The notes beneath the pieces were generated by a model. The model had not been told where the DNA came from and did not search any database. It saw only the letters and a list, made by a program, of their open reading frames with translations. This document shows positions 6,683-45,111 of a DNA stretch of 64,000 nucleotides, piece by piece. How positions within the stretch are numbered: position 1 is the first letter of the stretch; each line of letters begins with the position of its first letter. Position numbers and translations under genes: made by a program. Source of the DNA: a virus; the IMG/VR virus record IMGVR_UViG_3300021197_002039, positions 1 through 64,000 of that record; one strand, given 5' to 3'.

Positions 6683-6707
6683 ACTTTGATAATTATCTAC
6701 ATATATT

Positions 6708-11774: not shown

Positions 11775-11789
11775 AGTTGTATTTACGAC

Positions 11790-11797: not shown

Positions 11798-11821
11798 TAC
11801 ACAACGCAAGGATCAATAAAT

Positions 11822-13569: not shown

Positions 13570-13999
13570 CAGCATCCTTCTTCCTACGGAACTTGATGTG
13601 TTCGTAGTCTATGATGTGTACGTTTAATGGACCACCATGCTGTTGCATAATGCGTTCTGTGTCCAATGGTCTGATTGTTATCCTATCCTCTTCTGGCAAC
13701 TTGGCATTGTAACCCCAGAACATGGGCCACCAGTGTAGAGGATTGAGGGAATAAAATTTCTCTTTCATTATCAACAGGAACACGAAAGGCAATATTGTAA
13801 GAGGTTCCGCCCACCAAACAATGGCATCAAACGTAAGCCAGTCTATGAGATGTATTGCACCTGTCCACACACTCCATATGGCTAACAGTATGCCCATCAT
13901 TGGCCAGAATTCGCCGTCTAGGTCATCTATGTCGTGATCGTGGTGCCTGTAGGTCCTGTACATGATAAATTTCTGTTGACTCTTAGGACTCAGTTTCAT
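13544..13999 (-). CDS. Membrane protein with two hydrophobic segments, 151 aa
   Basis: Two hydrophobic stretches (about residues 33-52 FWPMMGILLAIWSVWTGAI region and 63-80 AEPLTILPFVFLLI) follow a His/Asp-rich N terminus (YRTYRHHDHDIDD). It lies antisense and head to head with tctA, but it does not look like TctB, which has four hydrophobic segments. Not recognised. A second Met (MYRTYR) at residue 13 is an alternative start. Confidence 0.7.
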   Translation of the reverse strand: MKLSPKSQQKFIMYRTYRHHDHDIDDLDGEFWPMMGILLAIWSVWTGAIHLIDWLTFDAIVWWAEPLTILPFVFLLIMKEKFYSLNPLHWWPMFWGYNAKLPEEDRITIRPLDTERIMQQHGGPLNVHIIDYEHIKFRRKKDAVIFGLRYF

Positions 14000-14092
14000 A
14001 TAATATTACTTAACACAAGAATAATTAATAACACATATTTTGTTGTAACGCTCCCAAGGAAGTTCACAGCAATAACCCCCAAATCAAATATT

Positions 14093-15529
14093 ATGGAACT
14101 TGCTATATTAATGGCGGGTATTGTTTACGGCTTGATCATTGGCCTAATACCAGCCGCGGGAGCAACAACAGGTCTTATCACACTATTTGGAGTCATGCCT
14201 TACTTCGTAGGAGATCCCTACCTGGGCGTGATATTCTGTGTGGCAGTTGTGGCATCCTCAACAACCGGTGATTCGTTCAGTGGTGTGCTACTAGGCATAC
14301 CCGGAGCCAACTCCGCGGCCGCAACAATGGTGGATGGATTCCCCATGGCCAAAAACGGAGAGGCCACACGAGCATTGAGTGCCGCTATAACATCAAGCAC
14401 AGCAAATGGTCTGTTTTGGGGATCACTAACATTTTTATTCCTGCCATGGTACACTAAGGTTGTTATGTACATGGGCATACCTGAGCTCTGGGCATTGGTG
14501 CTGTTGGCATTTGTCACCGTGGGATTCGTTTCAACTAGGAAATATGTCCGAAGCACACTAGCCATTGTACTTGGAGTCACAATAGGACTGGTTGGTGTTG
14601 ATGTAAACAATGTGCCTCGTTTCACGATGGGTTGGAGATATCTCGAGGACGGTGTACAGATATTGCCTTTCGTTGCAGGACTTTTTGCCATACCAGAACT
14701 TTGGAATGGATGGTTCAATAGAAAAACTACAACAACAATCAAAGCAGAACACGGCAGTTGGCACGACCTTAAACAAGGAATGAAAGATACTGTCAGATGT
14801 TGGAAGGACAGCATCAGGGGAGGAGCCATAGGTTCTTTCATAGGACTTCTACCTGGACTGGGTGGAGCGATGGCGGACTGGTTGGCGTATGGTGCAACGG
14901 TGGCGGCCAATCCCAAAGAGAAGTTTGGAAATGGAAACGTCAAGGGCGTGATAGGTGCCGAGGGTGCCAACAACGCACAGAAGGCCTCGTCATTCATTCC
15001 AACAGTTCTGTTTGGTATACCTGGTGCAAGTTTCGCCGCGATACTGATGGGACTATTCTTGTACCTGGGCATTGACCTGGGATCACCTGATACATTTTAC
15101 GACGACAGATTATTTGACAGCATGACTTTTGCTTTCTTGTTAGGAACAATCATCACTGCTGTCATTTGTTATGGACTGGCATATTTCGCAGGGTGGGTAA
15201 CACGTATTCCATATGTGTACTACTTTCCTTTCATACTTGCTGTGATTGTTTGGGCAACCTTGCAGTACACAGGCGGGTGGGAAGACCTTGCGGTACTTGT
15301 AGCATTCTCTATAATGGGACTGCTATGTAAAAAATTCCAAGTCAGCAGGCCAGCACTGCTGATAGGGTACCTGTTGAGTGACAGGATATACAATCTCACT
15401 TATCAACTAACCTCCCTACACACAGTAAACGATATGATAACAAGACCGATCTTTATTTTTATAATGATCTGTGTTATACTATTACTGTATTGGGGAATAA
15501 CAAAACGGAGTAGACTAGACTATGCTTAA
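14093..15529 (+). CDS. tctA: TctA-family large permease subunit, 478 aa
   Basis: Large membrane subunit of tripartite tricarboxylate transporters, which move carboxylates such as citrate into the cell using an ion gradient. Diagnostic blocks are present: LLGIPGANSAAATMVDGFPMAKNGEA near residues 65-90 in pieces, GLLPGLGGAMADWLAYG in the middle, the EGANNAQKASSFIPTVLFG block and a second GIPGAS. Around ten to twelve hydrophobic segments are visible. Family length is about 500 aa; the N terminus is about 25 residues short if the start is at 14093. The frame is open to 13934, but that extension is not membrane-like and runs antisense to the neighbouring gene. Its 3' end overlaps tctC by 8 nt. Confidence 0.88.
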   Translation: MELAILMAGIVYGLIIGLIPAAGATTGLITLFGVMPYFVGDPYLGVIFCVAVVASSTTGDSFSGVLLGIPGANSAAATMVDGFPMAKNGEATRALSAAITSSTANGLFWGSLTFLFLPWYTKVVMYMGIPELWALVLLAFVTVGFVSTRKYVRSTLAIVLGVTIGLVGVDVNNVPRFTMGWRYLEDGVQILPFVAGLFAIPELWNGWFNRKTTTTIKAEHGSWHDLKQGMKDTVRCWKDSIRGGAIGSFIGLLPGLGGAMADWLAYGATVAANPKEKFGNGNVKGVIGAEGANNAQKASSFIPTVLFGIPGASFAAILMGLFLYLGIDLGSPDTFYDDRLFDSMTFAFLLGTIITAVICYGLAYFAGWVTRIPYVYYFPFILAVIVWATLQYTGGWEDLAVLVAFSIMGLLCKKFQVSRPALLIGYLLSDRIYNLTYQLTSLHTVNDMITRPIFIFIMICVILLLYWGITKRSRLDYA

Positions 15530-16568
15530 GAAAACAATAATGGCTTTGGTGTTAATGACAACAACAGCCTTGGCAGATTACAATTTAATCGTGCCTCAAA
15601 AACCTTCTGGTGGAACTTCTGTGTGGGCACAGATAGTTGTAGCAGAATGGGAGAAACACCTTGGAGAAAAGATCAACTTGATCTACAAGCCAGGTGCTAG
15701 AGACCAACTGGGACCAAACGAGTTCCAAAACGAATTAAGATTTGACGACAAGACAATACTTGTATCACATGGTGGTAACGGTATATCATATCTCGTGGAA
15801 CCTGTAGAGTACAATTACTTTGATTGGGAATCAGTTGGACACATGAACCTAAACATCATTGTGGGTGCAAGGAACAAGGCAGACACAAAGAACGGACCTA
15901 TACAGTTTCCATCGGGATCTGGAATGACTCCAGAGATCATGGCAATCGTTATGTTGCTTACAGGACCAAACGGTGATCCAGTTAAAACATTTGAGGACAA
16001 GATAGTATGGGTAAAAGGAATGAAAGGGTCTGAGAGAAGACTTGCATTTATCAGAGGTGACTTGAATGCCACAAGGGAAAACCCTGCCGCATACAAGAAA
16101 CACGTGATGCCAGTGATAGGCAAAGGCGATGCATACACTTGGTTCCATCATGGCTTATTAAATGTTAACACAGGTGATCATGATGCTGATCCTAACTTCA
16201 CAGAACCAACATTTGAAGCACTGTATGAATCCACGTACGGAGTTGCACCAAGTGGTGACTTCTATGATGCATACAAACTTGTCAAGAGTTGGAGAGATGC
16301 ATTACAGAAAGCATTCTGGGTGAACGCAGGCAATCCAAACAAACAGGAACTTGTTGACGCTTTGGACAAGATGATCAAGGATCCAGACTCAGTTGCCGCT
16401 ATCGAAAAGAAAGTGGGCAAGTACGAATGGAGAACAGGTGCAGAGGGTGACGCCGCAGTGAGAACACTGAAGTCATTCATTACACCAGGTGCATTGAAAA
16501 CACTATCTGATTTTGGAAAGAATCAATTAGGATACAATGCAATCTACAAGGAAGAGTTGACCAAGTAG
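15522..16568 (+). CDS. tctC: TctC-like periplasmic solute-binding protein, 348 aa
   Basis: Starts with a signal peptide (MLKKTIMALVLMTTTALA, cleavage before DYNL). The mature sequence begins with the family-like IVPQKPSGGTSVWAQIVVAEWEKHLG block, and the length fits TctC receptors, which deliver carboxylates to TctA. No TctB (small membrane subunit) gene is adjacent. It overlaps tctA by 8 nt, so the two are co-translated, and is followed without a gap by the gene at 16569. Confidence 0.82.
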   Translation: MLKKTIMALVLMTTTALADYNLIVPQKPSGGTSVWAQIVVAEWEKHLGEKINLIYKPGARDQLGPNEFQNELRFDDKTILVSHGGNGISYLVEPVEYNYFDWESVGHMNLNIIVGARNKADTKNGPIQFPSGSGMTPEIMAIVMLLTGPNGDPVKTFEDKIVWVKGMKGSERRLAFIRGDLNATRENPAAYKKHVMPVIGKGDAYTWFHHGLLNVNTGDHDADPNFTEPTFEALYESTYGVAPSGDFYDAYKLVKSWRDALQKAFWVNAGNPNKQELVDALDKMIKDPDSVAAIEKKVGKYEWRTGAEGDAAVRTLKSFITPGALKTLSDFGKNQLGYNAIYKEELTK

Positions 16569-18832: not shown

Positions 18833-20047
18833 ATGTTGATAGAAGATGTCCTGACAGAGTTTAAGAGGACACACCTAGAACACATAGAGGACATAGTGAT
18901 CACTGACGGCTACGAGGGTGGCAAGGCAGTTTTAGAATATTTTAGGGGATTGTTGCTGACACTTAAAGGCACAAGTTCAGAAGCAATGAGTGTGTCGGTG
19001 AAGTGGGATGGTGCTCCTGCTGTGGTGTGTGGAACTAACCCAGACAATGGTAAGTTCTTCGTGGGAACAAAGTCAGTGTTTGCTCAAAACGCCAAAGTAA
19101 ATTACACAAAGAAAGACATAGCAAGTAATCACGGCACAGACGAATTAGGACAAAAATTGTTAAAATGCTTAGTACATCTGAAAAAACTTAACATACAGGG
19201 TGTGGTACAAGGCGACTTGTTGTACACAGATGAGGACATCATAAGAAAAAATATCGATGGAAAGCCTCAATTGACATTCACTCCAAACACAATCACATAT
19301 GCTGTTCCAGAAGCAAGTGCCCTAGGTAAACAGATCGACAGAGCAAAAGTGGGAATCATATTCCACACAACCTACGTAGGGGAATCGTTGGCAGACATGA
19401 ATGCTCAAGGAGGAGCGGATGTAAGTTCTTTCGCAAAAAGCAATGATGTGTTCTTTGACAATGCCACATACAAGGACGTGTCAGGTAGTGCCAAGTTCAC
19501 AGATGATGAAACGAAACAATTCTACAACGGAATAGAAAAGTTAGAGACACTATTAAATGGTGTTCCACGTGATCTATCCGGTGTGCTTGGACAGAACCAG
19601 GACTTCATACCCATGTTCCAGATGTACATCAACGCGATGGTCAAGCAAGGCCAGTTACCAAGTGATGTCAACAAATTTTTGTTAGGATTCAAAACTTTCT
19701 ATAACGACAGGATGCAAAAACAGATGTCAGGACTAAAGGCACAGAAGGCCTTACAACTGAGACAGGACAAGATGAAACAGATGCCTGTGTTCCTGAACAG
19801 GGCCAAGAAACCATTACAGGCCATGCTGATGTTCTACAAGGCTGTGCAGACCATGAAGGCATTCGTTCTCAAGAAGATGAACCAAGCACAGGCCATAGGA
19901 TCATTTCAACAGACGGACGGTGGATTAAAGGTAACGGAACCAGAAGGATTTGTTGCAGTAGACAAGTCGGGTAATGCTGTTAAGTTAGTTGATAGACTGG
20001 GATTCTCAAGAAGAAACTTGACGGGTATCAGCAAATTCCAGAAATAG
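18833..20047 (+). CDS. Phage protein with nucleotidyltransferase-like KxDG motif, 404 aa
   Basis: Resembles a conserved phage family (DUF6267-like) without an assigned role. The N-terminal 200 residues contain VKWDGAPAVVCG (Lys57, Asp59, Gly60), KFFVGTKSVF, QGVVQGDLLYTDED and VGIIFHTTY, an order reminiscent of motifs I, Ia, III and IV of covalent nucleotidyltransferases (DNA/RNA ligases and capping enzymes). The C-terminal half is helical and basic (QLRQDKMKQMPVFLNRAKK). A ligase-like activity is inference from these motifs only. Confidence 0.75.
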   Translation: MLIEDVLTEFKRTHLEHIEDIVITDGYEGGKAVLEYFRGLLLTLKGTSSEAMSVSVKWDGAPAVVCGTNPDNGKFFVGTKSVFAQNAKVNYTKKDIASNHGTDELGQKLLKCLVHLKKLNIQGVVQGDLLYTDEDIIRKNIDGKPQLTFTPNTITYAVPEASALGKQIDRAKVGIIFHTTYVGESLADMNAQGGADVSSFAKSNDVFFDNATYKDVSGSAKFTDDETKQFYNGIEKLETLLNGVPRDLSGVLGQNQDFIPMFQMYINAMVKQGQLPSDVNKFLLGFKTFYNDRMQKQMSGLKAQKALQLRQDKMKQMPVFLNRAKKPLQAMLMFYKAVQTMKAFVLKKMNQAQAIGSFQQTDGGLKVTEPEGFVAVDKSGNAVKLVDRLGFSRRNLTGISKFQK

Positions 20048-21043
20048 ATTCAACGTATCATTAATCGCCAAACTTAATTTCTCTTTGTTGAAAAAGTTAT
20101 TATAATTGTATTCTCTTAATGCTTTGCTTTGCAGATAAATGTCTTGCCATGGTGCATCACGCAACCTGTCACACACATCCACAATGGTGTTGATCCTCAT
20201 ATCAGGATCTCTGTCTAAGTCATATGCCTCTTCGAAATAATTGTTGAAAGTCCTAAATCCCATATCCCTCAACTTCTGAAGATATAGATAATTGCCATGT
20301 ACTACAAAAAGTTGTTGTGCTATAATTGGTTTCCATATTTTCTCTGTCATGAATACTTCATAGTCGTTGTCGTTGGTTTCTGACACAATGCTACAAGCAG
20401 TATCGTTGTAAGGCTTCTCGTATATGTCTTGGTCCATGCCGTACCGTGGATAGTCCTGTGCCCATGGCAGTTCATACTCCGCAGGCAGTTTCCTGTCTGG
20501 CCAACATGTGTGCAGACTGTTTTCTAATATGCCATTGTCAAATAATTTGTTATACAATTTTTTTCTGTGTGCTCTTGGTTCCTTATTGAGATACAGGAAG
20601 TCATATTTTTTATTTGTGTGATCAAAATTGAACTTATTGTTCTTGTGTTTGTCGTACATGTAATACCAAAACCAACTTACCCCACCGGTCCACTTGATAT
20701 GCTCTATTTCTATTTCTGGGTACTGTACTATCTGTTTAATATTATCTTGTGACTCCCATGGGTCGGCCTTTATGAAAACAAAACCTTGGCTGTGTAGCAA
20801 CTCACAACGTCTTTTAAGTTCTACATTGAAATCAGGATTGTCTTTCACCCTCACGTTGGCCTGCCTTGAATCTATCATGGCAAATCTACGATCATAAGAA
20901 TCGAGGTCGTAATTGTGTAATGTGTAGTATTCCCCGGTCATTTCAAACGTTTGGTCCTCTAGAGTGTGCATCTTTACAAACTCCTCGAGTTCAACATGCA
21001 AACCGGTTTTCATTACATCAGTTAATATAAAATTACGTTGCAT
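20006..21043 (-). CDS. Phage protein related to the 7847 gene, glycosyltransferase-like C terminus, 345 aa
   Basis: The C-terminal half (VFMTEKIWKPIIAQQLFVVHGNYLYL in two parts, then LRDMGFRTFNNYFEEAYD) is the block shared with the gene at 7847 and resembles the acceptor-proximal half of GT10-type glycosyltransferases. The middle has KYDFLYLNKEPRAHRKKL. The start is MQRNFILTDVM at 21043; a GTG further upstream would overlap the divergent gene. It overlaps the convergent gene 18833 by 42 nt. Confidence 0.7.
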   Translation of the reverse strand: MQRNFILTDVMKTGLHVELEEFVKMHTLEDQTFEMTGEYYTLHNYDLDSYDRRFAMIDSRQANVRVKDNPDFNVELKRRCELLHSQGFVFIKADPWESQDNIKQIVQYPEIEIEHIKWTGGVSWFWYYMYDKHKNNKFNFDHTNKKYDFLYLNKEPRAHRKKLYNKLFDNGILENSLHTCWPDRKLPAEYELPWAQDYPRYGMDQDIYEKPYNDTACSIVSETNDNDYEVFMTEKIWKPIIAQQLFVVHGNYLYLQKLRDMGFRTFNNYFEEAYDLDRDPDMRINTIVDVCDRLRDAPWQDIYLQSKALREYNYNNFFNKEKLSLAINDTLNLFLEFADTRQVSS

Positions 21044-21056
21044 AGGTTCTATAAAT

Positions 21057-21623
21057 ATGTGTATGTTAACACCATTTTTAAAGTATGTATCTGAAGGCAA
21101 GGTGATCAGAAGGCATAGTGACTTGCAAAGATTCACTTTCCCAGAGGTCACTGAAAGAATATACCTCAGTTTCCTAGCACTGGCCTTGATGAGTCAACAC
21201 AAGGACACACAGGGATTCGCCAAGTCATATGCCAACCAGACCATGGCCAAGGGTACATTTGATCAGGTCAGGATGATCAACAACGACCTAGCAAACATGT
21301 TGGCAATAGTGTCAGGAGATCCAGAGATAACAAAGAAACTCAAGAACAAGGACGAAGCACAGGCCATGAGGCAGAGACAACCTGTGCCCGTGATGGCCCT
21401 GAGGAGATACCTGAGGACCTGGGAAGATCATTTTAAGAACTTAACGCATTTAGAAAGAGCACTGAACGTACAGGATGCCAACCTCAAGAACATCAGGCGA
21501 GCGGTGGCCAACTACAGCAGTTTAAATTCAAAAATGAAGATGCAGACTTTACACAGACTGCAACAGCAATTACAATCCAAATTACCCAACACAGACATAC
21601 TGAAGAAATTTAAGGAACTTTAA
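21057..21623 (+). CDS. Hypothetical helical phage protein, 188 aa
   Basis: Basic helical protein (RRYLRTWEDHFKNLTHLERAL, RLQQQLQSKLPN in pieces) without a recognised family. Two close Mets (MCM) are possible starts; upstream is TATAAATA whose last A is the first base of the ATG at 21057, so initiation at the second ATG (21063) is also possible. Its stop overlaps the start of the Cys-rich gene. Confidence 0.7.
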   Translation: MCMLTPFLKYVSEGKVIRRHSDLQRFTFPEVTERIYLSFLALALMSQHKDTQGFAKSYANQTMAKGTFDQVRMINNDLANMLAIVSGDPEITKKLKNKDEAQAMRQRQPVPVMALRRYLRTWEDHFKNLTHLERALNVQDANLKNIRRAVANYSSLNSKMKMQTLHRLQQQLQSKLPNTDILKKFKEL

Positions 21624-21742
21624 TGATGATCGAATATATTTGTGAGAAGTGTGAGTGTGAACAGCACTGCCGGGGATCCTGTACAGAGTGCAGGGACTGT
21701 CCAGACTGTGCTTGTAAGGAATGTAATGCCGGAAGCGAATAG
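21623..21742 (+). CDS. Small cysteine-rich protein, 39 aa
   Basis: Encodes MMIEYICEKCECEQHCRG then SCTECRDCPDCACKECNAGSE: ten Cys in 28 residues as CxxC, CxC and CxxCxxCxxCxC, a clear metal-binding pattern. The ATG overlaps the upstream stop (TAATG) and the 3' end overlaps the FkbM methyltransferase start by 17 nt in another frame, so it is part of a coupled unit. Function unknown; zinc or Fe-S binding is likely. Confidence 0.75.
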   Translation: MMIEYICEKCECEQHCRGSCTECRDCPDCACKECNAGSE

Positions 21743-22325
21743 TTTCTGGGTACTTTACGGACAGCACACCAAACCCACTTACCTAGAAGATGCAGGCAAC
21801 GGACAGCAGGCACAAAGAGATGCCGCTCTGCAATACATCAAGCAGTGGCGTGTATGCCTGGATATAGGTAGCAACATAGGACAATGGACGAGACCACTCT
21901 CTAAGAAGTTTGAAAGTGTGGTGTGCTTCGAACCAAATCCCAACTTCAGAGAATGTTTCGAGAAGAACATACAAGAGAAAAATGTATTGCTATGGCCTTA
22001 CGGATTGTCGGACAAAGAACACAAAGCCAAGCAAGACTTCAACTCAACAGTGTTACAACAAGAGGATGGAGACATAGACTGTAGGACACTTGACAGTTTT
22101 GGATTGACCAATGTAGACTTCGTTAAGATAGATGTTGACGGCTTTGAGATACCATTACTGAACGGAGCGAGGCAAACATTGAGCAAGAACGATCCCGTGA
22201 TCAACATTGAAATGAAGAGGGACAAGAGGACGGATATTGTTGTGAAATGTGAGTCTATACTGAAAGATCTAGGCTACAAGTTCCAAAAACGCACAAAGAG
22301 TGACGAAGTGTGGCTTAAATCTTAA
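21726..22325 (+). CDS. FkbM-family methyltransferase, 199 aa
   Basis: Motif I CLDIGSNIGQWTRPLSK, then VVCFEPNPNFRECFEKN and FVKIDVDGFEIPLLNGARQTL are the typical FkbM blocks. The family methylates hydroxyls on sugars or small molecules. AAGGA precedes the ATG at 21726 by 6 nt. A second family member is at 39210. Confidence 0.85.
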   Translation: MPEANSFWVLYGQHTKPTYLEDAGNGQQAQRDAALQYIKQWRVCLDIGSNIGQWTRPLSKKFESVVCFEPNPNFRECFEKNIQEKNVLLWPYGLSDKEHKAKQDFNSTVLQQEDGDIDCRTLDSFGLTNVDFVKIDVDGFEIPLLNGARQTLSKNDPVINIEMKRDKRTDIVVKCESILKDLGYKFQKRTKSDEVWLKS

Positions 22326-26955: not shown

Positions 26956-27312
26956 GTGAGATTTTTCGAATTCAACAAAAGCGACACAGACCTAGAGTCA
27001 GCACTCATCAACATCCTGTTGAACATGAAGGGCGACGCTGACGAGAAGGACCAAGCATCAGACATCAGCATGGATGCAGTCAAACAGATAATGAGCAACA
27101 CAGGATATCCAGCATTCAACTACGATGTGTTCAAGAGAATCTATGATGCAGACGGTGATCTCAAGAACGTGGTAGCAGACTTCGATAATGAAAAGATAGT
27201 GGTCAAGACGGACCAAGAGGCAGAGCAAGAACCTGGCATGGACTACGATGATCAAGGTAGCACAGACGTTGTGAAGAAGATGGCCAAGTCAGCCATGAAC
27301 AGACGTAAGTAA
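26956..27312 (+). CDS. Hypothetical acidic protein, 118 aa
   Basis: Starts with GTG 5 nt after the previous stop; N terminus RFFEFNKSDTDLESALINIL. Helical and acidic with a basic end (KKMAKSAMNRRK). It ends exactly at the end of the convergent radical SAM operon. Unknown function. Confidence 0.75.
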   Translation: MRFFEFNKSDTDLESALINILLNMKGDADEKDQASDISMDAVKQIMSNTGYPAFNYDVFKRIYDADGDLKNVVADFDNEKIVVKTDQEAEQEPGMDYDDQGSTDVVKKMAKSAMNRRK

Positions 27313-28611
27313 TTAAAGATTTTTTACTTCCTCCCAAATCTGAGGATATACTGATTTCCAATTGGTGTCACGTCTACGATCCAATTCGTCTAGATATATT
27401 TTGAATTGTTTTTGTCTAAGCACACTTGGTTCCCTCTTATCAAACTCTGACATAATTCCCTGCATGTAAGTTTTATAAATTTCTTTAACCGAATCAGGGT
27501 TTCCATGTGAGGTTGTATCAAAAGATTCAACTGCTTCACGCAGTCCCCAATCGTTTATCTTGTTACCAAATATTCCTGGGTACATGTATTCCCTAGGGCC
27601 TATTTCATGTTGATTGGCTTTCATCATGCTCCAGTAGATAGGTTTGATTTTGTTACATTCGTTTAAGTATTTGACCATTGCAGGCATGCCCGGCACTGCT
27701 GTGACAGTCAACGCACTGTTGATGCCTTGATCGAATGATGTGTTGTGTAAAATGTATTCAAAGTTCTTAATTGCCACATTCAAGTCTAAACCAGTACGCA
27801 CATACTCGCCCTCAGGTCCTAGTGCATCACAACTGAAAAATATCTGTATCTTGTCTAGCCTGCCTGACTTCTGTAACACCTCTAGCCTGTCCATCCATGT
27901 CTTGAACCGTTCATGTTCTATGTTGTGGTTGCTGAAGAACACAAGAGTAAGATCAGGGTAGTTGCCTTTCTCCAGGAACTCTATGAACCTAAATGTTTCT
28001 TTCTGTAGGAACGGTTCTCCGCCCATGACAAATATCTTGTGTAACTCGTGTAGATGTTTTTCAAACCATTTGAACAGTAATTCTGTGTGTTCTGCTATCT
28101 TGGGATTCTTCTTCCACCAGTCTGCAATTTCAACACCTTCTTTGTTGAAATCTCCAAACCTTTTCTCTTCCTGCTGTATGGTCGAACTGTAATGAGCACC
28201 ACAATATATACAAGCCTGTTGACAGGTGTTGCCCCAATACACTTCCAACTGTCTCGGAGTTACATCGACTGCTGTTAGGTCTGTGTCCAGTTCCGGGGGT
28301 GCTGTGGTTCCTTCTAGATTCAAATGCACTTGCCTGTCTGATTTACCACCCGCTTCTTCTATGTGTTTGCAGTGTTCACACCCCCTGCCTGGCCACTCGC
28401 CTCTCAACATCTTACGCCTTGCTTCTAGTTTGGCTGGTATGTTGTGGAAGTTCAGTTCACCATTACGCACTTCCAATGGATCTCCCTTTACCCTGTGGCA
28501 ACTCGCACTGACCCCATCAGTGAGGTAGACTGTGCTGTGTGTCCATTTCAATTGACAAGGCAATCCTTTGGTAATAGGAAATGGCTTTGGTGGTTGTTTT
28601 GATATGCCCAT
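27313..28611 (-). CDS. Radical SAM enzyme, twitch/SPASM-like, 432 aa
   Basis: CxxxCxxC in GNTCQQACIYCGAHYSS (about residues 128-144) and the GGEP motif in IFVMGGEPFLQ mark the radical SAM barrel. A Cys/His-rich N terminus (SASCHRVKGD, GCEHCKHIEE) may carry an auxiliary cluster. Third gene of a three-gene minus-strand operon; 2 nt separate it from the upstream gene. Substrate unknown. Confidence 0.85.
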   Translation of the reverse strand: MGISKQPPKPFPITKGLPCQLKWTHSTVYLTDGVSASCHRVKGDPLEVRNGELNFHNIPAKLEARRKMLRGEWPGRGCEHCKHIEEAGGKSDRQVHLNLEGTTAPPELDTDLTAVDVTPRQLEVYWGNTCQQACIYCGAHYSSTIQQEEKRFGDFNKEGVEIADWWKKNPKIAEHTELLFKWFEKHLHELHKIFVMGGEPFLQKETFRFIEFLEKGNYPDLTLVFFSNHNIEHERFKTWMDRLEVLQKSGRLDKIQIFFSCDALGPEGEYVRTGLDLNVAIKNFEYILHNTSFDQGINSALTVTAVPGMPAMVKYLNECNKIKPIYWSMMKANQHEIGPREYMYPGIFGNKINDWGLREAVESFDTTSHGNPDSVKEIYKTYMQGIMSEFDKREPSVLRQKQFKIYLDELDRRRDTNWKSVYPQIWEEVKNL

Positions 28612-28613
28612 GT

Positions 28614-29792
28614 CTATGCGAAAAGTTTGGAGTATTCTGGGAACACTTCTTCAAACTTCTCCTTTCGTATACTATCTATCTTTGTGTTGAACTCCATAAA
28701 AGAATTCTGTTTTTCGCTGTAATCACTAGGCTCTGTCGCCATCCATTTTTTCATGTAATCAAACGTGTTTGTCCACGCTTTATGTTTGCTGTTGTACTTT
28801 GAAAGTTTCTCTAGCACAGCATCTTTAATTTTTTTAGGCAGGTATCTTACATCGTTCCACGGCTCGTCCCAACACCAAGTACTGCCCGGTATAATACCTA
28901 ACTTTTGAAAATAATCAAATGTTTGGTCATAGTGATATATGTTCCACGGGGTCAATGTTGTCCTAACTGCTAATTCAATATTTTCATATTTCTCCGAATC
29001 CTTCACATAGTTGTTGAGGTTGCCTATGATATTCTCCCATTTACTACCGTACCTTATGTAATCATTCTTTGTACCAATTGCATCTATGCTGAATCCCATG
29101 GTGGCTTGTTTGAACTTACTAAACTTGTCCATTAGCTCTTCTGCATAGACCATACCGTTTGTGTGTACATGAAAAGTTTTGTCGCCAACATTCTTGTTGG
29201 ACACGGCCTGGTCAAGTATGTTAAAGAACAGTGGAACGATCATTGGCTCGCCTCCAAACATATGCCACGCCACAATTTTATCTTCCCACTCGGTGAAACG
29301 TTTTTCTAGTTGGGTATTATTGTTGTAGGCAGTCCTGTGCCGGTCAAAAAACTTCAAGTACTCCTTGAAGGTCTTGCCTTGGTCATCTAAGGCATAATCT
29401 GTCTTGTACCACATACTGCTGGTGTGAGCATTACAACTCCTGCAGGCATTGTTACACTTGTTGCCGGGTTTCAATATCATTAACCTAGGCTGTGTCTTGA
29501 CATCCTCAACATCTTTTAATAATTTGTTAAACCTTTGTCTAGTGGATTCGAGGTTGGCATCCTCTTGGTCCCAACACAATTTACAGGTTGGATTCCTTAC
29601 ACCATTGTCATGATCCGATATTAGTTTTTTTCTATGTTCACTATCCCATATAGTCTTAACATCATCGGTAAGCACATTGAACTTACTGCCATCGTTCTTC
29701 TCGAGATAATAGTTGGTTAGTTCGCACGGTTGGACCATTCCGCTCATGTCGAAATTAAGTGTTAGTTTGGCTTTCTTACAATTAGTTGACAT
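28614..29792 (-). CDS. Radical SAM enzyme, twitch-like, 392 aa
   Basis: GNKCNNACRSCNAHTSS carries the CxxxCxxC motif (about residues 111-123) and FGGEPMIVPLFF the GGEP motif. The N terminus (DMSGMVQPCELTN, TCKLCWDQED) has extra Cys pairs, as in the gene at 27313; the two are paralogues. Second gene of the operon, starting on the base after the stop of the gene at 29793. Confidence 0.85.
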   Translation of the reverse strand: MSTNCKKAKLTLNFDMSGMVQPCELTNYYLEKNDGSKFNVLTDDVKTIWDSEHRKKLISDHDNGVRNPTCKLCWDQEDANLESTRQRFNKLLKDVEDVKTQPRLMILKPGNKCNNACRSCNAHTSSMWYKTDYALDDQGKTFKEYLKFFDRHRTAYNNNTQLEKRFTEWEDKIVAWHMFGGEPMIVPLFFNILDQAVSNKNVGDKTFHVHTNGMVYAEELMDKFSKFKQATMGFSIDAIGTKNDYIRYGSKWENIIGNLNNYVKDSEKYENIELAVRTTLTPWNIYHYDQTFDYFQKLGIIPGSTWCWDEPWNDVRYLPKKIKDAVLEKLSKYNSKHKAWTNTFDYMKKWMATEPSDYSEKQNSFMEFNTKIDSIRKEKFEEVFPEYSKLFA

Positions 29793-30815
29793 CTATTTCT
29801 CTCCACAGGCGTGATAACACCCCTGTAACCTTTTGTCGCTACCATTGATTCCACTCTCGAGATCTTTGAAAAAATCTCCCTCTAAAATATCTTTCAGGTC
29901 TGTGTAGTGTAGATTTATCTTGTTGTAATCTTTTATTATATGTTTGGGTTCATTCCTTTCGACATCTCCCAATATACAGCAAGGGCTCACGTAACCATTT
30001 GCACGTAGATAGATTTCACGTTTGTGAGGCTGACATGCCAAGCACATTATTTTCCTTGTTAGGAAGTTGTCCTTTTCTTGTTTTTCTTCTGTTACAAAAA
30101 CATTCTTACTTTTGGTCCAATTGTCGTCCTTGATAAAATCTTCTTTTTGCTCGACAGGTTTTTCGATGACATATCCATCTACTTCCAGTGAGGTTATGTC
30201 TCTGTATTGACCATTACTGTTGAAGTCCTGCCAACGTTCACTGAAGGTGTGATTGAATGAATTGAATCCCAACTCCGTAGACAATGCCTTTGCTTCATCT
30301 ATTTGGTGTTGATTGTGTTTGAAAACAAGCATATCCCATCTAGCCTCACCTCCGTTGTCAATATAAGTTTTAACATTATCCATTAAGTTTTTCCACTTGA
30401 CGTTCCTGCGATATAAATGATTTGTGTCTTCCAGACCGTCTATACCAAATGTAATTCTCACACCTAGTTTGGCCATGGATTTCCAGAAGTCTCTGTTCCT
30501 CGCCCCACCGTTTGTGTGCATTAAGATCTTCATGCTGGGATTTATTTCTCGAAGGTATTTGAATATATCAACGGTCTCTGGATTCATCGAAGCGTCGCCA
30601 TACGTGCCTTGACATGTCCATTGTTTCAGTCTAGATATGATTCCTTTATCAATCTTTTCTTTAACAAACTCTAGTGTCGTGTGGTGTGCATTTGTAACAC
30701 CTTTCACTAGATTTAGATCCCAATCAAATCTATTGCACATGGGACAGGCCGCGTTGCAATAGTCAGTCATTTCAGCCATGATGTGAGTTAGATTATCAGT
30801 TGTAATATATGACAT
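29793..30815 (-). CDS. Radical SAM/SPASM enzyme, 340 aa
   Basis: TDYCNAACPMCNRFDWD gives Cys20, 24 and 27 of the radical SAM cluster. C-terminal Cys groups (KIMCLACQPHKRE, VSPCCILGDVER, GCYHACGEK) fit a SPASM domain. Closely related to the enzyme at 10893 (ITFGIDGLEDTNHLYRR shared). First gene of the operon 30815-27313, transcribed from an A/T-rich bidirectional promoter region near 30820. Confidence 0.87.
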   Translation of the reverse strand: MSYITTDNLTHIMAEMTDYCNAACPMCNRFDWDLNLVKGVTNAHHTTLEFVKEKIDKGIISRLKQWTCQGTYGDASMNPETVDIFKYLREINPSMKILMHTNGGARNRDFWKSMAKLGVRITFGIDGLEDTNHLYRRNVKWKNLMDNVKTYIDNGGEARWDMLVFKHNQHQIDEAKALSTELGFNSFNHTFSERWQDFNSNGQYRDITSLEVDGYVIEKPVEQKEDFIKDDNWTKSKNVFVTEEKQEKDNFLTRKIMCLACQPHKREIYLRANGYVSPCCILGDVERNEPKHIIKDYNKINLHYTDLKDILEGDFFKDLESGINGSDKRLQGCYHACGEK

Positions 30816-30835: not shown

Positions 30836-31540
30836 ATGAAGTTTACCAAAGAAGTTTTAAAACACAAAGGAATAACGTATTACCAGAAGTATCCGTATGG
30901 CGAACTGTCCAGGGTAACGAAGAACAAGAAAAGACATTACGAAACACCGGACGGAAGAGCAGTACCCAGTGTGACCACAGTGCTGTCAGCCACCAAAGAT
31001 ATGACACACCTACACGCATGGCGCAAGAGGATTGGTGCAGAGAAGGCACAACAGATCACGACAGAGAGTGCCAACATAGGAACGGTAATGCACCGTAGCC
31101 TAGAGAAGCATGTGAAGGGAGAGGACAGGACTCCTGGATCTAATCTCATACAGCAGAAGGCACACACGATGGCCAATGTCATAATAGACAACGGCTTGAA
31201 CAATGTCTCAGAAGTGTGGGGATCAGAGGTTTCACTGTACTATCCAGAACTGTATGCGGGCACCACGGACCTGGTTGGTGTTTACAAAGGTGCTCCTGCA
31301 ATCATGGACTTCAAACAGGCAAGACGTCTTAAAAAAAAGGAATGGGTGGAGGACTACTATCTCCAATTAGTAGCATACGCAGAAGCACACAACAAACAGT
31401 ACGACACACAGATAAAGACTGGCCGTATATTCATATGCACACAGGCCAACGAATATCAAACGTTTGACATTGACAACTACGATCACTGGGTAGGCAAGTG
31501 GTATGCAAAATTGGAACAATACTACAAGCAAATACTTTAA
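30836..31540 (+). CDS. PD-(D/E)XK superfamily exonuclease (RecB/Cas4-like), 234 aa
   Basis: Active-site order His86 (GTVMHR), Glu131, Asp145 (AGTTDLVG), Asp158-x-Lys160 (IMDFKQA) and the YYLQLVAYAEA helix fit RecB-type PD-(D/E)XK nucleases found in T4-like marine phages. Likely acts in recombination or DNA processing. No ribosome site is seen; TATAAT (about 30823-30828) lies 7 nt before the ATG, so the message may be leaderless. Confidence 0.82.
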   Translation: MKFTKEVLKHKGITYYQKYPYGELSRVTKNKKRHYETPDGRAVPSVTTVLSATKDMTHLHAWRKRIGAEKAQQITTESANIGTVMHRSLEKHVKGEDRTPGSNLIQQKAHTMANVIIDNGLNNVSEVWGSEVSLYYPELYAGTTDLVGVYKGAPAIMDFKQARRLKKKEWVEDYYLQLVAYAEAHNKQYDTQIKTGRIFICTQANEYQTFDIDNYDHWVGKWYAKLEQYYKQIL

Positions 31541-40164: not shown

Positions 40165-41421
40165 ATGAGAAAATTAATTATATCAATACTTTCTTTTTTA
40201 TCATTCATATGTGCACCAGCGATTGGATCCGCACAAGATGTTAAAATTGGAGTAATATATCCTCTCACTGGCTCTTCTGCACAGATCGGGAAAGATGCGG
40301 TGGCGGCGGTCAACACTGCCTTGGATATAATCAACAACAAGCACAACATTCCTGGCATGCCGTTAGCGGAAAACGAAGGCCTTGAAGGTTTAGATGGTGC
40401 GAAAGTATCTATAGTCGTTGGCGATCACACTGGTAAACCAGATGTGGGAGTAAGTGAAACTGAAAAGATGCTCAACAAAGACGGCGTCCATGCGATGTAT
40501 GGTGCTTACTTTTCTTCTGTGGTGGCCGCGGCCAGCACCGTGACTGAAAGGGCAGGCATTCCATTTGTGAACGGAGATTCTGCTTCGCCAAAACTTACAT
40601 CTAGAGGATTGAAATATTTCTTTAGGGTAGGTCCACATGATGGTATGTTTACACAGTTGATGTTCGAGTTTATACAGGATTTCAACAAGAAGAATAATGC
40701 AAATCTTAATACGTTAGGAATCTTACACGAAGATACTTTATGGGGATCTGACAGTGGTTCAACACAAAACAAAATGGCCAAAGAGCAAGGCTATGAGGTT
40801 ATAGAGAAAATAAGTTATAAAGCGTCTACAACAACTTTGACTTCTGAAGTCCAGAGGTTGAAACTAAAAGATCCAGATGTTCTTCTTCCGTCTCAGTACA
40901 CGGCAGATGCGTTCTTGTTTTTGAACACTGCTCAAGAACTTGATTACAATCCTAAGTTATTGATTGCCCAAAATGCCGGATATGTAGATCCTACATTTAT
41001 TTCAACTTTGGGAGATAAGGCCGAAGGTGTCATATCTAGATCACCGTTCAACACAGATCTAGCAAAAACAATACCCATGATCGGTACAATCAATAAAATA
41101 TTCAAAAAGCATTCTGGAGGAAGAGATCTATCAGATGTTCCTGCTAGGGCATTTACAGGTTTCATGGCACTCGCTGTGGCAATCAACAATGCTGGATCAA
41201 CGGATCCTGAGAAAATCAGAGAAGCACTTGTTAATCTTGACATACCAGGAGAAGCATTGATAGTACCTTACAGAGGTGTTAAGTTTGGTCCAGATGGACA
41301 GAACGAGGCAGTACGAGGAGTACTAATGCAAGTTCAAAATGGAAAATATTGCACAGTCTATCCATATGAACTAGCGGCGTGTGACCTTGTGTACCCAATG
41401 CCAACTTGGGATCAAAAATAA
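40165..41421 (+). CDS. livJ: Periplasmic binding protein of a branched-chain amino acid/amide (HAAT) transporter, 418 aa
   Basis: Signal peptide MRKLIISILSFLSFICAPAIGSA, mature start QDVKIGVIYPLTGSSAQIG, which is the hallmark opening of Peripla_BP_6 proteins. Later blocks MYGAYFSSVVAAASTVTERAG (in pieces) and IPFVNGDSASPKL fit the type I fold. Ligands of the family include Leu/Ile/Val, urea, amides and polyamines; the sequence alone does not decide. First gene of a five-gene operon, with a small inverted repeat in the 54-nt gap before livH. Confidence 0.88.
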   Translation: MRKLIISILSFLSFICAPAIGSAQDVKIGVIYPLTGSSAQIGKDAVAAVNTALDIINNKHNIPGMPLAENEGLEGLDGAKVSIVVGDHTGKPDVGVSETEKMLNKDGVHAMYGAYFSSVVAAASTVTERAGIPFVNGDSASPKLTSRGLKYFFRVGPHDGMFTQLMFEFIQDFNKKNNANLNTLGILHEDTLWGSDSGSTQNKMAKEQGYEVIEKISYKASTTTLTSEVQRLKLKDPDVLLPSQYTADAFLFLNTAQELDYNPKLLIAQNAGYVDPTFISTLGDKAEGVISRSPFNTDLAKTIPMIGTINKIFKKHSGGRDLSDVPARAFTGFMALAVAINNAGSTDPEKIREALVNLDIPGEALIVPYRGVKFGPDGQNEAVRGVLMQVQNGKYCTVYPYELAACDLVYPMPTWDQK

Positions 41422-41475
41422 TAATCACACTCTTACTCAAAAGCGAAGTCGCCTTAGTGAGATCCAGCAAAAATT

Positions 41476-42342
41476 ATGACCGTTGAAATAATACTTCAGG
41501 CAATCGTGGCAGGACTGATGATGGGACTTATCTATGCCTTGATAGCCGCTGGATTGAGTTTGATCTTTGGGTTGATGGGGATAGTCAACTTCGCTCATGG
41601 AGAACATCTGATGCTATCCATGTTCACATCTTTCTGGTTGTGGTCGTTGCTAGGGTTGGATCCTTTATTTTCCGTTCCTATTACAATTTTACTAATGGCA
41701 GTGTGCGGTGTTCTAACCCACTATCTGTTGATAAGATACATTTTAGAAGCAAAGATGTTAATACAGATCTGTGCAACCTTTGGGTTGTCTATCTTTATTA
41801 GATCCGTAGCTCAACTATTATGGACCCCCGATTACAGAAATGTACAGAATCCATTAATCGAGGGTAGGATAGAATTAGGAACCATTTATGTTGGACAGCC
41901 TCAATTATTTGCAAGTCTGATTTGCCTTCTAGCATTTATAGGTTTATACTGTTTCGTTACAAAAACAGAAACAGGACTGGCACTCCAGGCCACAGCACAA
42001 GACAGACACGCCGCTGAAATACTTGGTATCCCTTCTGACAAAATGTTTGCACTAGGATGGGCAATAGGACTTGGATGTGTTGCTGTTGCTGGATCGATGA
42101 TGATGAACTATTTTGCTGTGTTCACTGATGTGGGTATAAATTTTGCCCTGTTTGCCTTTGTGGCAGTTGCTCTAGGCGGCTTTGGCAGTATTATAGGATG
42201 CCTGTACGCCGGAATTATAATAGGACTTGTTGAATCGTTGGGTGGCCTGCTCATAGATCCATCATTCAAACTTCTTTATGTGTTTGCAATTTACCTATTG
42301 GTAGTCATTTACAGACCACAAGGTTTGTTTGGGAGATATTGA
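41476..42342 (+). CDS. livH: LivH-type ABC permease, 288 aa
   Basis: Eight or so hydrophobic segments; the family block GLIYALIAAGLSLIFGLMGI near the N terminus and NFAHGEHLML after it are typical of LivH/UrtB. The C-terminal FGSIIGCLYAGIIIGLVESLGG in pieces is likewise conserved. The stop overlaps the ATG of livM by 1 nt (TGATG). Confidence 0.9.
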   Translation: MTVEIILQAIVAGLMMGLIYALIAAGLSLIFGLMGIVNFAHGEHLMLSMFTSFWLWSLLGLDPLFSVPITILLMAVCGVLTHYLLIRYILEAKMLIQICATFGLSIFIRSVAQLLWTPDYRNVQNPLIEGRIELGTIYVGQPQLFASLICLLAFIGLYCFVTKTETGLALQATAQDRHAAEILGIPSDKMFALGWAIGLGCVAVAGSMMMNYFAVFTDVGINFALFAFVAVALGGFGSIIGCLYAGIIIGLVESLGGLLIDPSFKLLYVFAIYLLVVIYRPQGLFGRY

Positions 42343-43355
42343 TGCTAGACAAGTTATCATTGGCCAAACAAGAACCTGTATGGAAGAACAATAACACGAT
42401 TTTATATTTTTTAAGTTCGACTGTTTTGTTATTGTTTTGCCTGCCTTTGTTTGATATCAATTCATTTTACCTACACTTGTTCATAATGATATTCATGCAC
42501 AGTGTAATGGCACAATCTTGGAATGTGATAGCAGGTTTTTCAGGACAGATCAGTCTAGGGCATGGACTGTTCTTTGGCATCGGCGCTTATGCAACATCAT
42601 TCTTGTTTACTGAATATGGGATCACACCATGGATGGGCATTGTATTTGGAATGTTTGTGTCAGGCATAATTGCGGTCCTAATAGGTATTCCTATGTTGAG
42701 ACTGCACGGGCATTACTTTGCCATAGCGACTCTGTTGATCGCAATTGGTTTCTCCCTTGTATTCAGAAGATGGGATCTAGTGGGTGCCGCTTCTGGCCTG
42801 TGGATTCCTATATTACCAGCGGATTCATGGATAGCACTCCAGTTCAACTCAAGTAAGGTTCCCTACTACTATATTTTCCTAGTATTTTTCCTTACAACTT
42901 TCCTTTTGAGTTGGATGTTAAGCAGGTCCAAACTAGGATATAGGCTAAGGGCAGTAAGAGATGATCCCCAAGCGGCATCGAGTCTGGGTATCAACGTGTC
43001 GCACTATAAGATAATAGCATACGTGATATCAGCGATGATGATGGCACCAATGGGCAGTTTGTTTGCCCAATATATTCTCGTGATAGATCCTGCAACAGTG
43101 TTCAATATCGAGATATCAATCGTGGTGTTGCTGATCACAGTGCTCGGTGGCACAGGAAATATCTGGGGGCCGTTGCTAGGCACGGTGATATTGATCCCCA
43201 TATCCGAGTATACAAGGATTTATCTAGGTGGCACAGGTGGTGCAGTGGACTTGATACTCTACGGATTAATACTAATGCTTATTTGTGTGTTCAGGCCTAA
43301 TGGGTTGATATCATTCTTTAACAGAGATGTAATAGACAGGAAGCAAAAGAGATGA
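42342..43355 (+). CDS. livM: LivM-type ABC permease, 337 aa
   Basis: WNVIAGFSGQISLGHGLFFGIGAYAT (in two parts) and the LGTVILIPISEYTRI region match LivM/UrtC. The protein has about ten hydrophobic segments, usual length for the family. It ends ATGA with livG. The ATG at 42342 is preferred to the TTG at 42339. Confidence 0.9.
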   Translation: MLDKLSLAKQEPVWKNNNTILYFLSSTVLLLFCLPLFDINSFYLHLFIMIFMHSVMAQSWNVIAGFSGQISLGHGLFFGIGAYATSFLFTEYGITPWMGIVFGMFVSGIIAVLIGIPMLRLHGHYFAIATLLIAIGFSLVFRRWDLVGAASGLWIPILPADSWIALQFNSSKVPYYYIFLVFFLTTFLLSWMLSRSKLGYRLRAVRDDPQAASSLGINVSHYKIIAYVISAMMMAPMGSLFAQYILVIDPATVFNIEISIVVLLITVLGGTGNIWGPLLGTVILIPISEYTRIYLGGTGGAVDLILYGLILMLICVFRPNGLISFFNRDVIDRKQKR

Positions 43356-44074
43356 AAATATTGACTGTAGAAAACATCAGCAGGTCTTTTGGAGGTATCA
43401 AGGCAAACAAAAATATTTCATTTGACGTAGAACAAGGTAGCATATTAGGAGTCATAGGACCAAACGGTGCAGGAAAGTCTACATTGTTTGACCTTATAAC
43501 CGGTTACACAAAAGCCGACAATGGCACAGTAAATTTTTTTGCCAACAATATATCTGGCTTACGTCCAGATCAAATAAGTGCCTTGGGAATAGGCAGAACA
43601 TTTCAAAAACTTAAACCCTTCGCAGACCAAACCCTGCTTGAAAATGTCATGATAGGATGTTTTGTTAAAGAATCTAACATCAAAAAAGCCAGAGATAGAG
43701 CACTTGAAATAATTGACTTTGTAGATTTGATAGACAAGAGACATCACTACGCAAAAGAACTGTCAACAGGACAAAGAAAGAGACTGGAAATGGCAAGGGC
43801 CATGGCAATTGAGCCTAAACTGTTATTAATGGACGAAGTTACTGGAGGGGTTGATCAGAGGACGGTGCCCGGTTTGGTAGAGTTGATAAAGAAAATGAAG
43901 AGATCCGGGGTCACTATCGTTACAATAGAACACAACATGAACATAATCATGGAAATTTCAGATAACATCCTTGCTCTAGACCAAGGTCAAAGTATAGCGT
44001 ACGGCACGCCAAAACAAATCCAAAATAATAAAAACGTTATTGATTCGTACCTGGGAACATACGATGCTACTTGA
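43352..44074 (+). CDS. livG: LivG-type ABC ATPase, 240 aa
   Basis: Walker A GPNGAGKST (about residues 36-44), signature LSTGQRKRLEMARAM, Walker B LLLMDEVTGG, and the H-loop TIEHNMN. FKKL-like region GIGRTFQKLKPFADQTLLENVMIG resembles LivG in pieces. Intact catalytic residues suggest a working transporter. Overlaps livF by 11 nt. Confidence 0.92.
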   Translation: MKILTVENISRSFGGIKANKNISFDVEQGSILGVIGPNGAGKSTLFDLITGYTKADNGTVNFFANNISGLRPDQISALGIGRTFQKLKPFADQTLLENVMIGCFVKESNIKKARDRALEIIDFVDLIDKRHHYAKELSTGQRKRLEMARAMAIEPKLLLMDEVTGGVDQRTVPGLVELIKKMKRSGVTIVTIEHNMNIIMEISDNILALDQGQSIAYGTPKQIQNNKNVIDSYLGTYDAT

Positions 44075-44771
44075 TATAAAAAACATCGATGTGTTATATG
44101 ACGACTTCCAGGTGATCTGGAACGTGTCGATGAATGTGAAGCAAGGTGAAATGGTTGCTTTACTAGGTCCAAACGGTTCTGGAAAAAGCACTATCCTGAA
44201 CACCATAAGCAATTTGGTGAACCACAGGCAAGGCACTATACATTTCAATGACGCTTTGATTTCTAATACTCCCACACATAAAAGGACAGAATTAGGCATC
44301 TCACATGTTCTCGAAAGGCGTAGGGTTTTCCCACACCTGACAGTCATGCAAAATCTTTTATTAGGAGCATGGCACAAAAAAGCAAAACACCAATTGGAGA
44401 GTTCACTGACAAAAGTGTTCAAAATTTTCCCAAAACTAGAAGCACGAAAGTATCAACTTGCAAAAACAATGTCGGGAGGCGAGCAACAGATCTTAGCGAT
44501 TGCAAGGGGCATGATGGGTCTCCCAAAACTCTTGATGATTGATGAACCTTTCTTAGGTTTATCGCCATTGGTCATGAAAGATCTTATAAAAGTATTTAGA
44601 AACATAGTTGACGAAGGGGTGTCTATATTGTTTGTAGAGCAAAATGTACGACTAGCATTGAGCATGGCTGATCGTGGTTATGTGCTTGAAAGTGGAAGAC
44701 TCGTGATACATGGCAAATCCAAAGATCTAATCAACAACGATAAAGTGACAAAAATTTTCCTAGGAAACTAA
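44064..44771 (+). CDS. livF: LivF-type ABC ATPase, 235 aa
   Basis: Walker A GPNGSGKST (about residues 36-44), SHVLERRRVFPHLTVMQNL block typical of LivF/UrtE, signature MSGGEQQILAIARGM, Walker B LLMIDEPFLGL and the FVEQN H-loop equivalent. The ATG at 44064 lies inside livG. Last gene of the operon; the tmRNA terminator hairpin begins 6 nt after its stop on the other strand. Confidence 0.92.
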   Translation: MLLDIKNIDVLYDDFQVIWNVSMNVKQGEMVALLGPNGSGKSTILNTISNLVNHRQGTIHFNDALISNTPTHKRTELGISHVLERRRVFPHLTVMQNLLLGAWHKKAKHQLESSLTKVFKIFPKLEARKYQLAKTMSGGEQQILAIARGMMGLPKLLMIDEPFLGLSPLVMKDLIKVFRNIVDEGVSILFVEQNVRLALSMADRGYVLESGRLVIHGKSKDLINNDKVTKIFLGN

Positions 44772-44776
44772 AGAAG

Positions 44777-44804
44777 TGGTCCGTTCTGTTGCAAGGTGGA
44801 CCAT
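44777..44804 (-). terminator. Hairpin at the 3' end of the tmRNA transcript (also after livF)
   Basis: TGGTCC and GGACCA form a 6-bp stem with a loop of about 15 nt, followed on the minus strand by CTTCTTTAGTTT. It may end the tmRNA transcript and also act after livF. Confidence 0.5.
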
Positions 44805-45077
44805 TCCCCTGAAATTATTGGTTATTACGCCGCTAATCTCAATTCAGACATACCAACTGTTAAGTCAGCAAATCCTAATGCTTTTTTGTTTGCATTTAAA
44901 AAACAGCCTGATTAGGTCAGTGCCATCACCAAGTTCTCGTAACAAGTTTAGACGTCGATCGATTCCAATAACACCCCCGGAAGGGATTACATAAGCCACC
45001 AAGTAATAAATTGGTGGAGGTGGCGAGATTTGAACTCGCGTCTCGTCCGCTTATTAATTGTTAGTCAACAAACTTAA
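44790..45077 (-). ncRNA. ssrA: Circularly permuted (two-piece) tmRNA
   Basis: Rescues stalled ribosomes by acting as tRNA-Ala and mRNA. The acceptor piece (about 45077-45012) has the T-arm GCGAG-TTCAAAT-CTCGC and ends CACCTCCACCA. A 33-nt intervening segment (45011-44979) follows, then the coding piece starting GGGGGTG (44978). The two ends pair in a 7-bp acceptor stem including the alanine identity pair G3-U70, with discriminator A and CCA encoded. GGAATCGATCGACG matches the tmRNA 5' consensus. The tag frame 44893-44822 has 22 sense codons, starts GCA AAC (ANKK), ends RLAA, and closes TAA TAA. The 5' and 3' processing ends are estimates. Confidence 0.93.
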
Positions 45078-45082
45078 ATGTA

Positions 45083-45111
45083 ATTATACCTGAAGGTTGA
45101 CGTATTGTCAA
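45083..45111 (-). promoter_or_regulatory. Promoter TTGACA-17-TATAAT for the tmRNA
   Basis: Minus strand -35 TTGACA (45106-45111), 17-nt spacer, -10 TATAAT (45083-45088): a near-consensus sigma-70 promoter. Its -35 is half of the palindrome TTGACGTATTGTCAA, whose other half is the -35 of the divergent promoter at 45097. Confidence 0.85.

Follow-up and report, generated by a model that had tools for sequence, protein, structure and literature searches.

What do three consecutive radical S-adenosylmethionine (rSAM) enzymes do in the genome of a virus? The question is raised by positions 27313-30815 of a stretch of 64,000 nucleotides (positions 1 to 64,000 of the IMG/VR record IMGVR_UViG_3300021197_002039), the whole of which is called the window here. 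That T4-like phages abound in rSAM genes has been on record since 2010, with no substrate assigned to them. We favour, with moderate confidence, the answer that the trio is part of a sugar- or glycan-tailoring toolkit of the phage and forms one exchangeable cassette of it. As the relatives of these enzymes are found among sugar-building genes, both in other phages and in Bdellovibrio-like bacteria, the phage probably remodels sugars, either on the host surface or on its own particles. This answer is built on the observed anatomy and conservation of the trio, on the lack of a local precursor and on the association of its relatives with sugar genes.

Gene content and motifs of the trio

The interval is filled on the minus strand by three intact rSAM open reading frames (ORFs) with spacers of 0 and 2 nt, read in the order SPASM-type, TW2, TW1, and both flanking genes, one ending at 27312 and the other starting at 30836, lie on the opposite strand. 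The original prediction had described three consecutive rSAM genes, 0-2 nt apart and opposite in strand to the structural genes, and the ORFs indeed proved to be complete.

29793-30815, minus strand: SPASM/twitch-type rSAM enzyme of 340 amino acids, first gene of the operon (PF04055 54 bits, PF13186 25.1 bits)
28614-29792, minus strand: TW2, N-terminal-twitch rSAM enzyme of 392 amino acids (NF033640 255.9 bits)
27313-28611, minus strand: TW1, N-terminal-twitch rSAM enzyme of 432 amino acids, invariant core gene of the island (NF033640 220.6 bits)
26956-27312, plus strand: conserved head/structural-block gene for a 118-amino-acid protein, one of the two fixed flanks of the island (cluster 8, 36 loci)
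30836-31540, plus strand: PD-(D/E)XK exonuclease, the other fixed flank (phrog_298, E 6e-53)

Each of the three genes carries one CX3CX2C rSAM motif. Pfam Radical_SAM scores across the trio were 54, 37.5 and 26 bits, the last being below the cut-off of 29.5 bits, and both TW1 and TW2 exceeded the cut-off of the NCBIfam model NF033640 N_Twi_rSAM (170 bits) over their full length. In TW1, C130/C134/C137 and C19/C38/C78/C81 are present in at least 95% of the aligned sequences from both phage groups described below, and in TW2 C113/C117/C120 and C5/C23/C70/C73 are invariant (alignment A1). The first gene of the operon has its rSAM motif at C20/C24/C27 and reaches PF13186 with its C-terminal residues 261-334 (25.1 bits, gathering score 21.5 bits), but it lacks the canonical seven-cysteine SPASM motif and holds six C-terminal cysteines, of which C279/C280/C333/C337 are invariant, C258 is nearly so and C261 is variable (alignment A5). 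The enzyme is SPASM/twitch-like and not a classical SPASM protein. An earlier description of the trio as one SPASM enzyme and two twitch-like paralogues was therefore right as to the families, but the SPASM motif is not the classical one, the twitch domain is N-terminal in TW1 and TW2, and these two are mutually distant (about 22% identity, one compared with relatives of the other). The extra cysteine sets of the trio are predicted to be auxiliary iron-sulphur cluster sites.

All three genes are under purifying selection, with ratios of non-synonymous to synonymous substitution rates (dN/dS) of 0.03-0.09 in pairs without synonymous saturation only, and the synteny is kept in dozens of contigs, so that the trio does not consist of chance ORFs. 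A scan for promoters and terminators gave counts near those of shuffled sequence.

A variable cassette in a fixed slot

A scan of IMG/VR for TW1 gave 156 related loci, 80 of which were kept: 39 close loci (window included) and about 41 in a second group of T4-like phages. The neighbourhood comparison in phages that had been suggested for this locus showed a fixed slot, as TW1 adjoins the same head-region genes in 38 of the 39 close loci, and the exonuclease/tail-spike block too where the contig reaches it; in the exception (L055), TW1 lies in a different context. TW2 is present in nine loci of the TW1 island (window included), a SPASM-type gene (a c18 member) lies inside the island in about half of the 39 loci, and another N-twitch gene, a glutathione peroxidase-like gene and one further gene likewise come and go. 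The trio is a variable, exchangeable cassette in a fixed slot around the invariant TW1. It had been placed inside a phage late region, which is correct for the position, but the slot itself is a variable accessory island.

In the second group (35-38% identity), the TW1 orthologue lies between uvsX and uvsY and is often accompanied by other N-twitch genes. The genes uvsX, uvsY and gp32 and the terminase of this group were identified by eye, and one contig carries a T4-type Gp23 capsid protein. In most of the loci L071-L112, which belong to uncultured T4-like phages, the orthologue overlaps uvsY and a small upstream gene by a few bases. Across both groups, 83 alignment columns are conserved to at least 95%, including the three rSAM and four twitch cysteines. 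In the tree, both groups fall into a single clade (100/99), most other phage types form clades of their own, and TW2 lies in a phage-only clade. The only families found near TW1 in both groups are rSAM enzymes, c2-type families, an FkbM methyltransferase and one unknown family.

Among isolate phages, TW1 was matched only in the Vibrio phages K566/K567, at 23% identity; there was no isolate-phage match for the second-group orthologue, and none at E 1e-5 for the 29793-30815 enzyme. At the sensitivity of a pattern search, no relative of TW1 was found in 84,980 bacterial and archaeal species genomes. A PDB sequence search with the TW1 profile gave no match.

Search for a precursor peptide

That no small precursor peptide is visible had been stated for the window, and this was confirmed on a larger scale. 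In 29 islands, bounded by the exonuclease and the head gene, only 611 of 73,628 nt (0.8%) are non-coding, which excludes a precursor peptide beside the trio; the small ORFs are few, none is conserved across loci, and no precursor was found next to the enzymes. NCBIfam models for maturases of ribosomally synthesised and post-translationally modified peptides (RiPPs) scored far below their cut-offs, and Pfam reported no peptide-recognition domain. Two small proteins were considered and dropped: c10, next to TW1, was rejected as a precursor because the window's family does not have it, and it has no isolate-phage match; the adjacent 118-amino-acid protein was rejected as a substrate because no counterpart was found in the second TW1 group.

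Sugar genes in the window and in cultured phages

The whole 65.5-kb record holds six matches to PF04055. The fourth related enzyme, at 10893, had been recognised before and is a paralogue of the 29793-30815 enzyme; two B12-binding-type enzymes had been overlooked, which brings the inventory from four to six.

10893-11816, minus strand: fourth rSAM enzyme, in a sugar cassette, 34% identical to the 29793-30815 enzyme and matching a CP220 rSAM near an amidinotransferase
46174-47598, plus strand: B12-binding-type rSAM enzyme (PF04055 49 bits, PF02310 weak; 32% to 53151)
53151-54596, plus strand: B12-binding-type rSAM enzyme (PF04055 60 bits), with homologues beside N-Twi genes in Bdellovibrionia chromosomes
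8822-9736, plus strand: inosamine-phosphate amidinotransferase-like enzyme (PDB 1bwd, E 3.5e-42)
5130-6101, minus strand: second, weaker amidinotransferase-like gene (PDB HsvA, E 1.7e-4), with homologues within cellular rSAM arrays
6098-6718, minus strand: short DegT/DnrJ/EryC1 sugar aminotransferase-like ORF (PF01041 43.8 bits)
9736-10926, plus strand: UDP-glucose/GDP-mannose dehydrogenase family enzyme (PF00984/PF03721)
20006-21151, minus strand: conserved c2-family protein, glycosyltransferase-like by motif only, with a paralogue at 7847-8782
21642-22325, plus strand: FkbM-type methyltransferase, common to both TW1-bearing phage groups (PF05050 53.6 bits)

The genome that carries the trio thus also encodes a DegT enzyme, a UDP-sugar dehydrogenase, an amidinotransferase and an FkbM methyltransferase. 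In cultured phages, similar genes occur together. The 8822 protein matched the Synechococcus phage S-SCSM2R and phages of Campylobacter and Enterococcus; in S-SCSM2R, the inosamine amidinotransferase lies in one run with an aminotransferase-like gene, an rSAM gene and several glycosyltransferases, and CP220 combines its amidinotransferase with five rSAM genes and two proteins bearing nucleotide-sugar transferase domains. The 10893 enzyme matched a CP220 rSAM at 74461 (22%), about 0.5 kb upstream of the CP220 amidinotransferase. Pelagibacter phage Mosig carries rSAM-like MoaA genes together with an ArnB-like aminotransferase and a carbamoyltransferase.

A small ORF touches each B12-type rSAM gene of the window (46174-48014 and 52744-54596, both plus strand); the two encode 139 and 136 amino acids and have no recognisable kinship to each other. 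Small proteins likewise flank the B12-type enzyme in related phages, and one locus (L158) holds an N-twitch rSAM gene, a 193-amino-acid ORF and a B12-type rSAM gene in one run.

Cellular counterparts

Relatives of the SPASM-type enzyme (22-42% identity) were found in metagenome-assembled genomes (MAGs) of Bdellovibrionia, Myxococcales, Chloroflexi and others, some of them in tandem arrays of N-twitch and SPASM enzymes. Three loci (L113, L114 and L121) were left out of the evidence because the SPASM gene was missed or cut by greedy ORF calling, and L127, which resembles a phage contig within a MAG, was left out of the cellular count. On Bdellovibrionia contigs of 349-937 kb, the clusters around SPASM relatives are rich in N-twitch genes, the densest contig holding about 13 NF033640 genes over the cut-off in 29 kb, and many of these bacteria have 15-33 NF033640 matches per genome. 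Several such Bdellovibrionia clusters (L142-L143 and L145-L148) extend over tens of kb and include oxygenases, pyridoxal phosphate-dependent enzymes and membrane proteins, along with many genes without a Pfam match. A contig of the Rickettsiales MAG MED657 (L115), either viral or chromosomal, carries about a dozen consecutive rSAM genes.

The other enzymes of the window have homologues in the same places. The best match of the B12-type enzyme 53151 lies no more than about 10 kb from an N-Twi gene in four of six genomes (chance about 2e-5), that of the amidinotransferase 5130 in two of two (about 1e-3) and that of the c2 protein 20006 in three of four (about 3e-4); these chance figures, calculated for this distance from the best match in each genome, are rough and come from few, partly related genomes. 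Homologues of the UDP-sugar dehydrogenase 9736 with 51-59% identity stand beside c2 genes in all three genomes (MAGs) with a strong match, and in two of these inside an rSAM array. Further sugar or envelope genes of the cellular clusters encode DegT, carbamoyltransferase, MBOAT, GT2 and PMT_2 proteins, and in one Bdellovibrionia chromosome (G027) a heptosyltransferase and a GT2 enzyme lie near the c2 and sugar dehydrogenase genes.

N-twitch/SPASM rSAM arrays of up to a dozen or more enzymes, with B12-type rSAMs and amidinotransferases, might, as a tentative proposal that we rate as possible rather than probable, represent an unrecognised 'radical glycan-tailoring' system by which Bdellovibrionia and related bacteria build surface sugars with heavy modifications. 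Dispersed versions of it would then be carried by marine T4-like phages; their common core would be the phage-specific TW1, and its substrate would be the same in distinct phage groups.

Proposed function and alternative explanations

Each enzyme of the trio would use its 5'-deoxyadenosyl radical to oxidise, epimerise or deoxygenate a sugar, the substrate being perhaps an amino- or guanidino-sugar that is linked to a nucleotide or already assembled. Its partners would be the phage's own amidinotransferase, aminotransferase, sugar dehydrogenase, methyltransferase and B12-type rSAM enzymes. The product may end up on the host envelope, which would alter receptors there and exclude rival phages; deposition on the virion is the less likely alternative. 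Substrate, reactions and destination (host envelope rather than virion) are what we infer here. The substrate had earlier been left as a protein, a sugar or a nucleotide, and among these a sugar is best supported.

Several points weigh against this proposal. The sugar cassette of the window lies 16-20 kb from the trio, and no glycosyltransferase is annotated in the island itself, nor was one assigned among the ORFs scanned. The c2 family was rejected as a proven glycosyltransferase, as Pfam and PDB give no support and its putative function is suggested by motif. The cellular comparison covers MAGs of related lineages with few co-location counts, and in two genomes (G018 and G020) the best matches of the B12-type enzyme lie away from N-Twi genes. 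In addition, the model of the SPASM-type enzyme, whose fold matches SuiB, anSME and SkfB, resembles the peptide-acting SuiB (Z 19.0) and anSME (18.4) as well as the sugar-acting BlsE (17.8) and DesII (17.4). The structure comparisons, which were made with predicted models, fit an rSAM/SPASM fold and do not discriminate between peptide and sugar substrates.

Peptides or proteins are frequent substrates of SPASM/twitch enzymes. Together with the place of SuiB and anSME among the top structural matches and the nearly constant position of TW1 next to a gene of the structural block in the window's family, this would agree with post-translational modification of a phage protein of the virion, the tail or host takeover. 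We consider this unlikely, as neither the adjacent 118-amino-acid protein nor other structural genes turned up in the second TW1 group, no protein partner beyond rSAM, c2, FkbM and one unknown family is common to both groups, and the cellular homologues accompany sugar genes and not one conserved protein. Even less credence is given to maturation of a RiPP encoded elsewhere. Tandem rSAM enzymes are found in RiPP clusters and several weak NCBIfam matches of the trio are peptide maturases, but the almost fully coding islands without a conserved small ORF, the low scores of the RiPP-type models and the missing recognition domain argue against it.

An action on nucleotides or DNA bases (hypermodification, a viperin-like nucleotide analogue or a deazapurine) was suggested by the TW1 structure: viperin ranked first in Foldseek for the AlphaFold2 model (pLDDT, the predicted local distance difference test, 90). 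A remote KVP40 relative is close to a QueC-like gene, and in the second group TW1 lies between recombination genes. This is nonetheless quite improbable, as the viperin model NF038283 scored 17-30 bits with 180 required, QueE was represented only by phrog_2076 (E 0.008 to TW2) with no NCBIfam QueE match, and the island showed no partner that would modify bases. The toolkit could also make a free aminocyclitol- or guanidino-sugar metabolite, such as a toxin, signal or osmolyte, instead of a glycan; inosamine-phosphate amidinotransferase, DegT, rSAM and dehydrogenase enzymes also make aminoglycoside-type products, and BtrN and BlsE folds point the same way. Against this, homologues are accompanied by glycosyltransferases, PMT_2 and MBOAT enzymes and a heptosyltransferase, and we would be surprised if it applied.

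The association with amidinotransferase genes and sugar genes, seen in cultured phages as well as in Bdellovibrionia arrays, supplies a concrete and testable substrate class, namely sugars, and TW1 is a named orthologous enzyme for assay. If sugar tailoring is the function of the trio, oxygen-sensitive radical sugar chemistry would be routine in the surface warfare between ocean phages and their hosts.

The phage and its other genes

The source is an uncultured marine T4-like phage. Its DUF6267 protein is 42% and its ribonucleotide reductase large subunit 70% identical to the counterparts in Pelagibacter phage HTVC008M, and the gene order DUF6267, structural genes, ribonucleotide reductase resembles that of Kyanoviridae. 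A permuted transfer-messenger RNA (tmRNA) of alphaproteobacterial type lies at 44775-45115 on the minus strand (Rfam RF04321 96 bits, RF01849 72 bits; ARAGORN agrees). Permuted tmRNAs are known in marine phages, in one case with a type not matching the host (PMC9004378), so that an alphaproteobacterial host is plausible rather than established.

Further cargo on the plus strand includes a complete ATP-binding cassette importer of the branched-chain amino acid/urea type at 40165-44771 (binding protein, two permeases and two ATP-binding proteins, the second ATPase assigned by eye), a second transporter at 13934-16568 formed by a TctA tricarboxylate-transporter permease (E 4e-94) and a putative secreted binding protein, and a phage-encoded ClpX-like ATPase with a zinc finger at 59737-60984.

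Comparison with known systems

Many rSAM genes in T4-like phages are already known (PMC2853527, PMC5332604), as are rSAM cassettes in the host-recognition clusters of pelagimyophages (PMC7029224). In the open literature searched, the TW1 core in two phage groups, its fixed slot and the cellular arrays with homologues of this gene set appear to be new.

The Campylobacter phages CP220 and CPt10 have 11-12 rSAM genes per genome and a swappable module of five rSAM genes and an amidinotransferase, and a metabolic benefit at low oxygen was proposed by the authors (PMC2853527). Common to them and the window are the T4-like type, the many rSAM genes, an rSAM gene near an amidinotransferase and a module exchanged as a whole, but no TW1 or TW2 match was found there. 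The environmental T4-like genome TARA_ERS488813_N000010, with 12 rSAM genes, is likewise a marine phage rich in such genes, which were discussed as iron-sulphur proteins (PMC5332604). S-SCSM2R (PQ898602) shares the rSAM, the DegT-type enzyme and the inosamine amidinotransferase, its set being contiguous with glycosyltransferases, whereas that of the window is dispersed. TW1 and TW2 match NF033640 N_Twi_rSAM over the cut-off and at full length; the model description names no substrate, and TW1 forms a phage clade of its own.

Pelagimyophages are also marine and T4-like, and their host-recognition clusters combine glycosyltransferases and UDP-glucose dehydrogenase with rSAM cassettes that vary within the structural block (PMC7029224, as far as its available text goes, in which no rSAM enzyme family or function is named). 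The island described here differs from them in its fixed slot with TW1 as the invariant orthologue, and in that relatives of the trio are tied to cellular sugar clusters.

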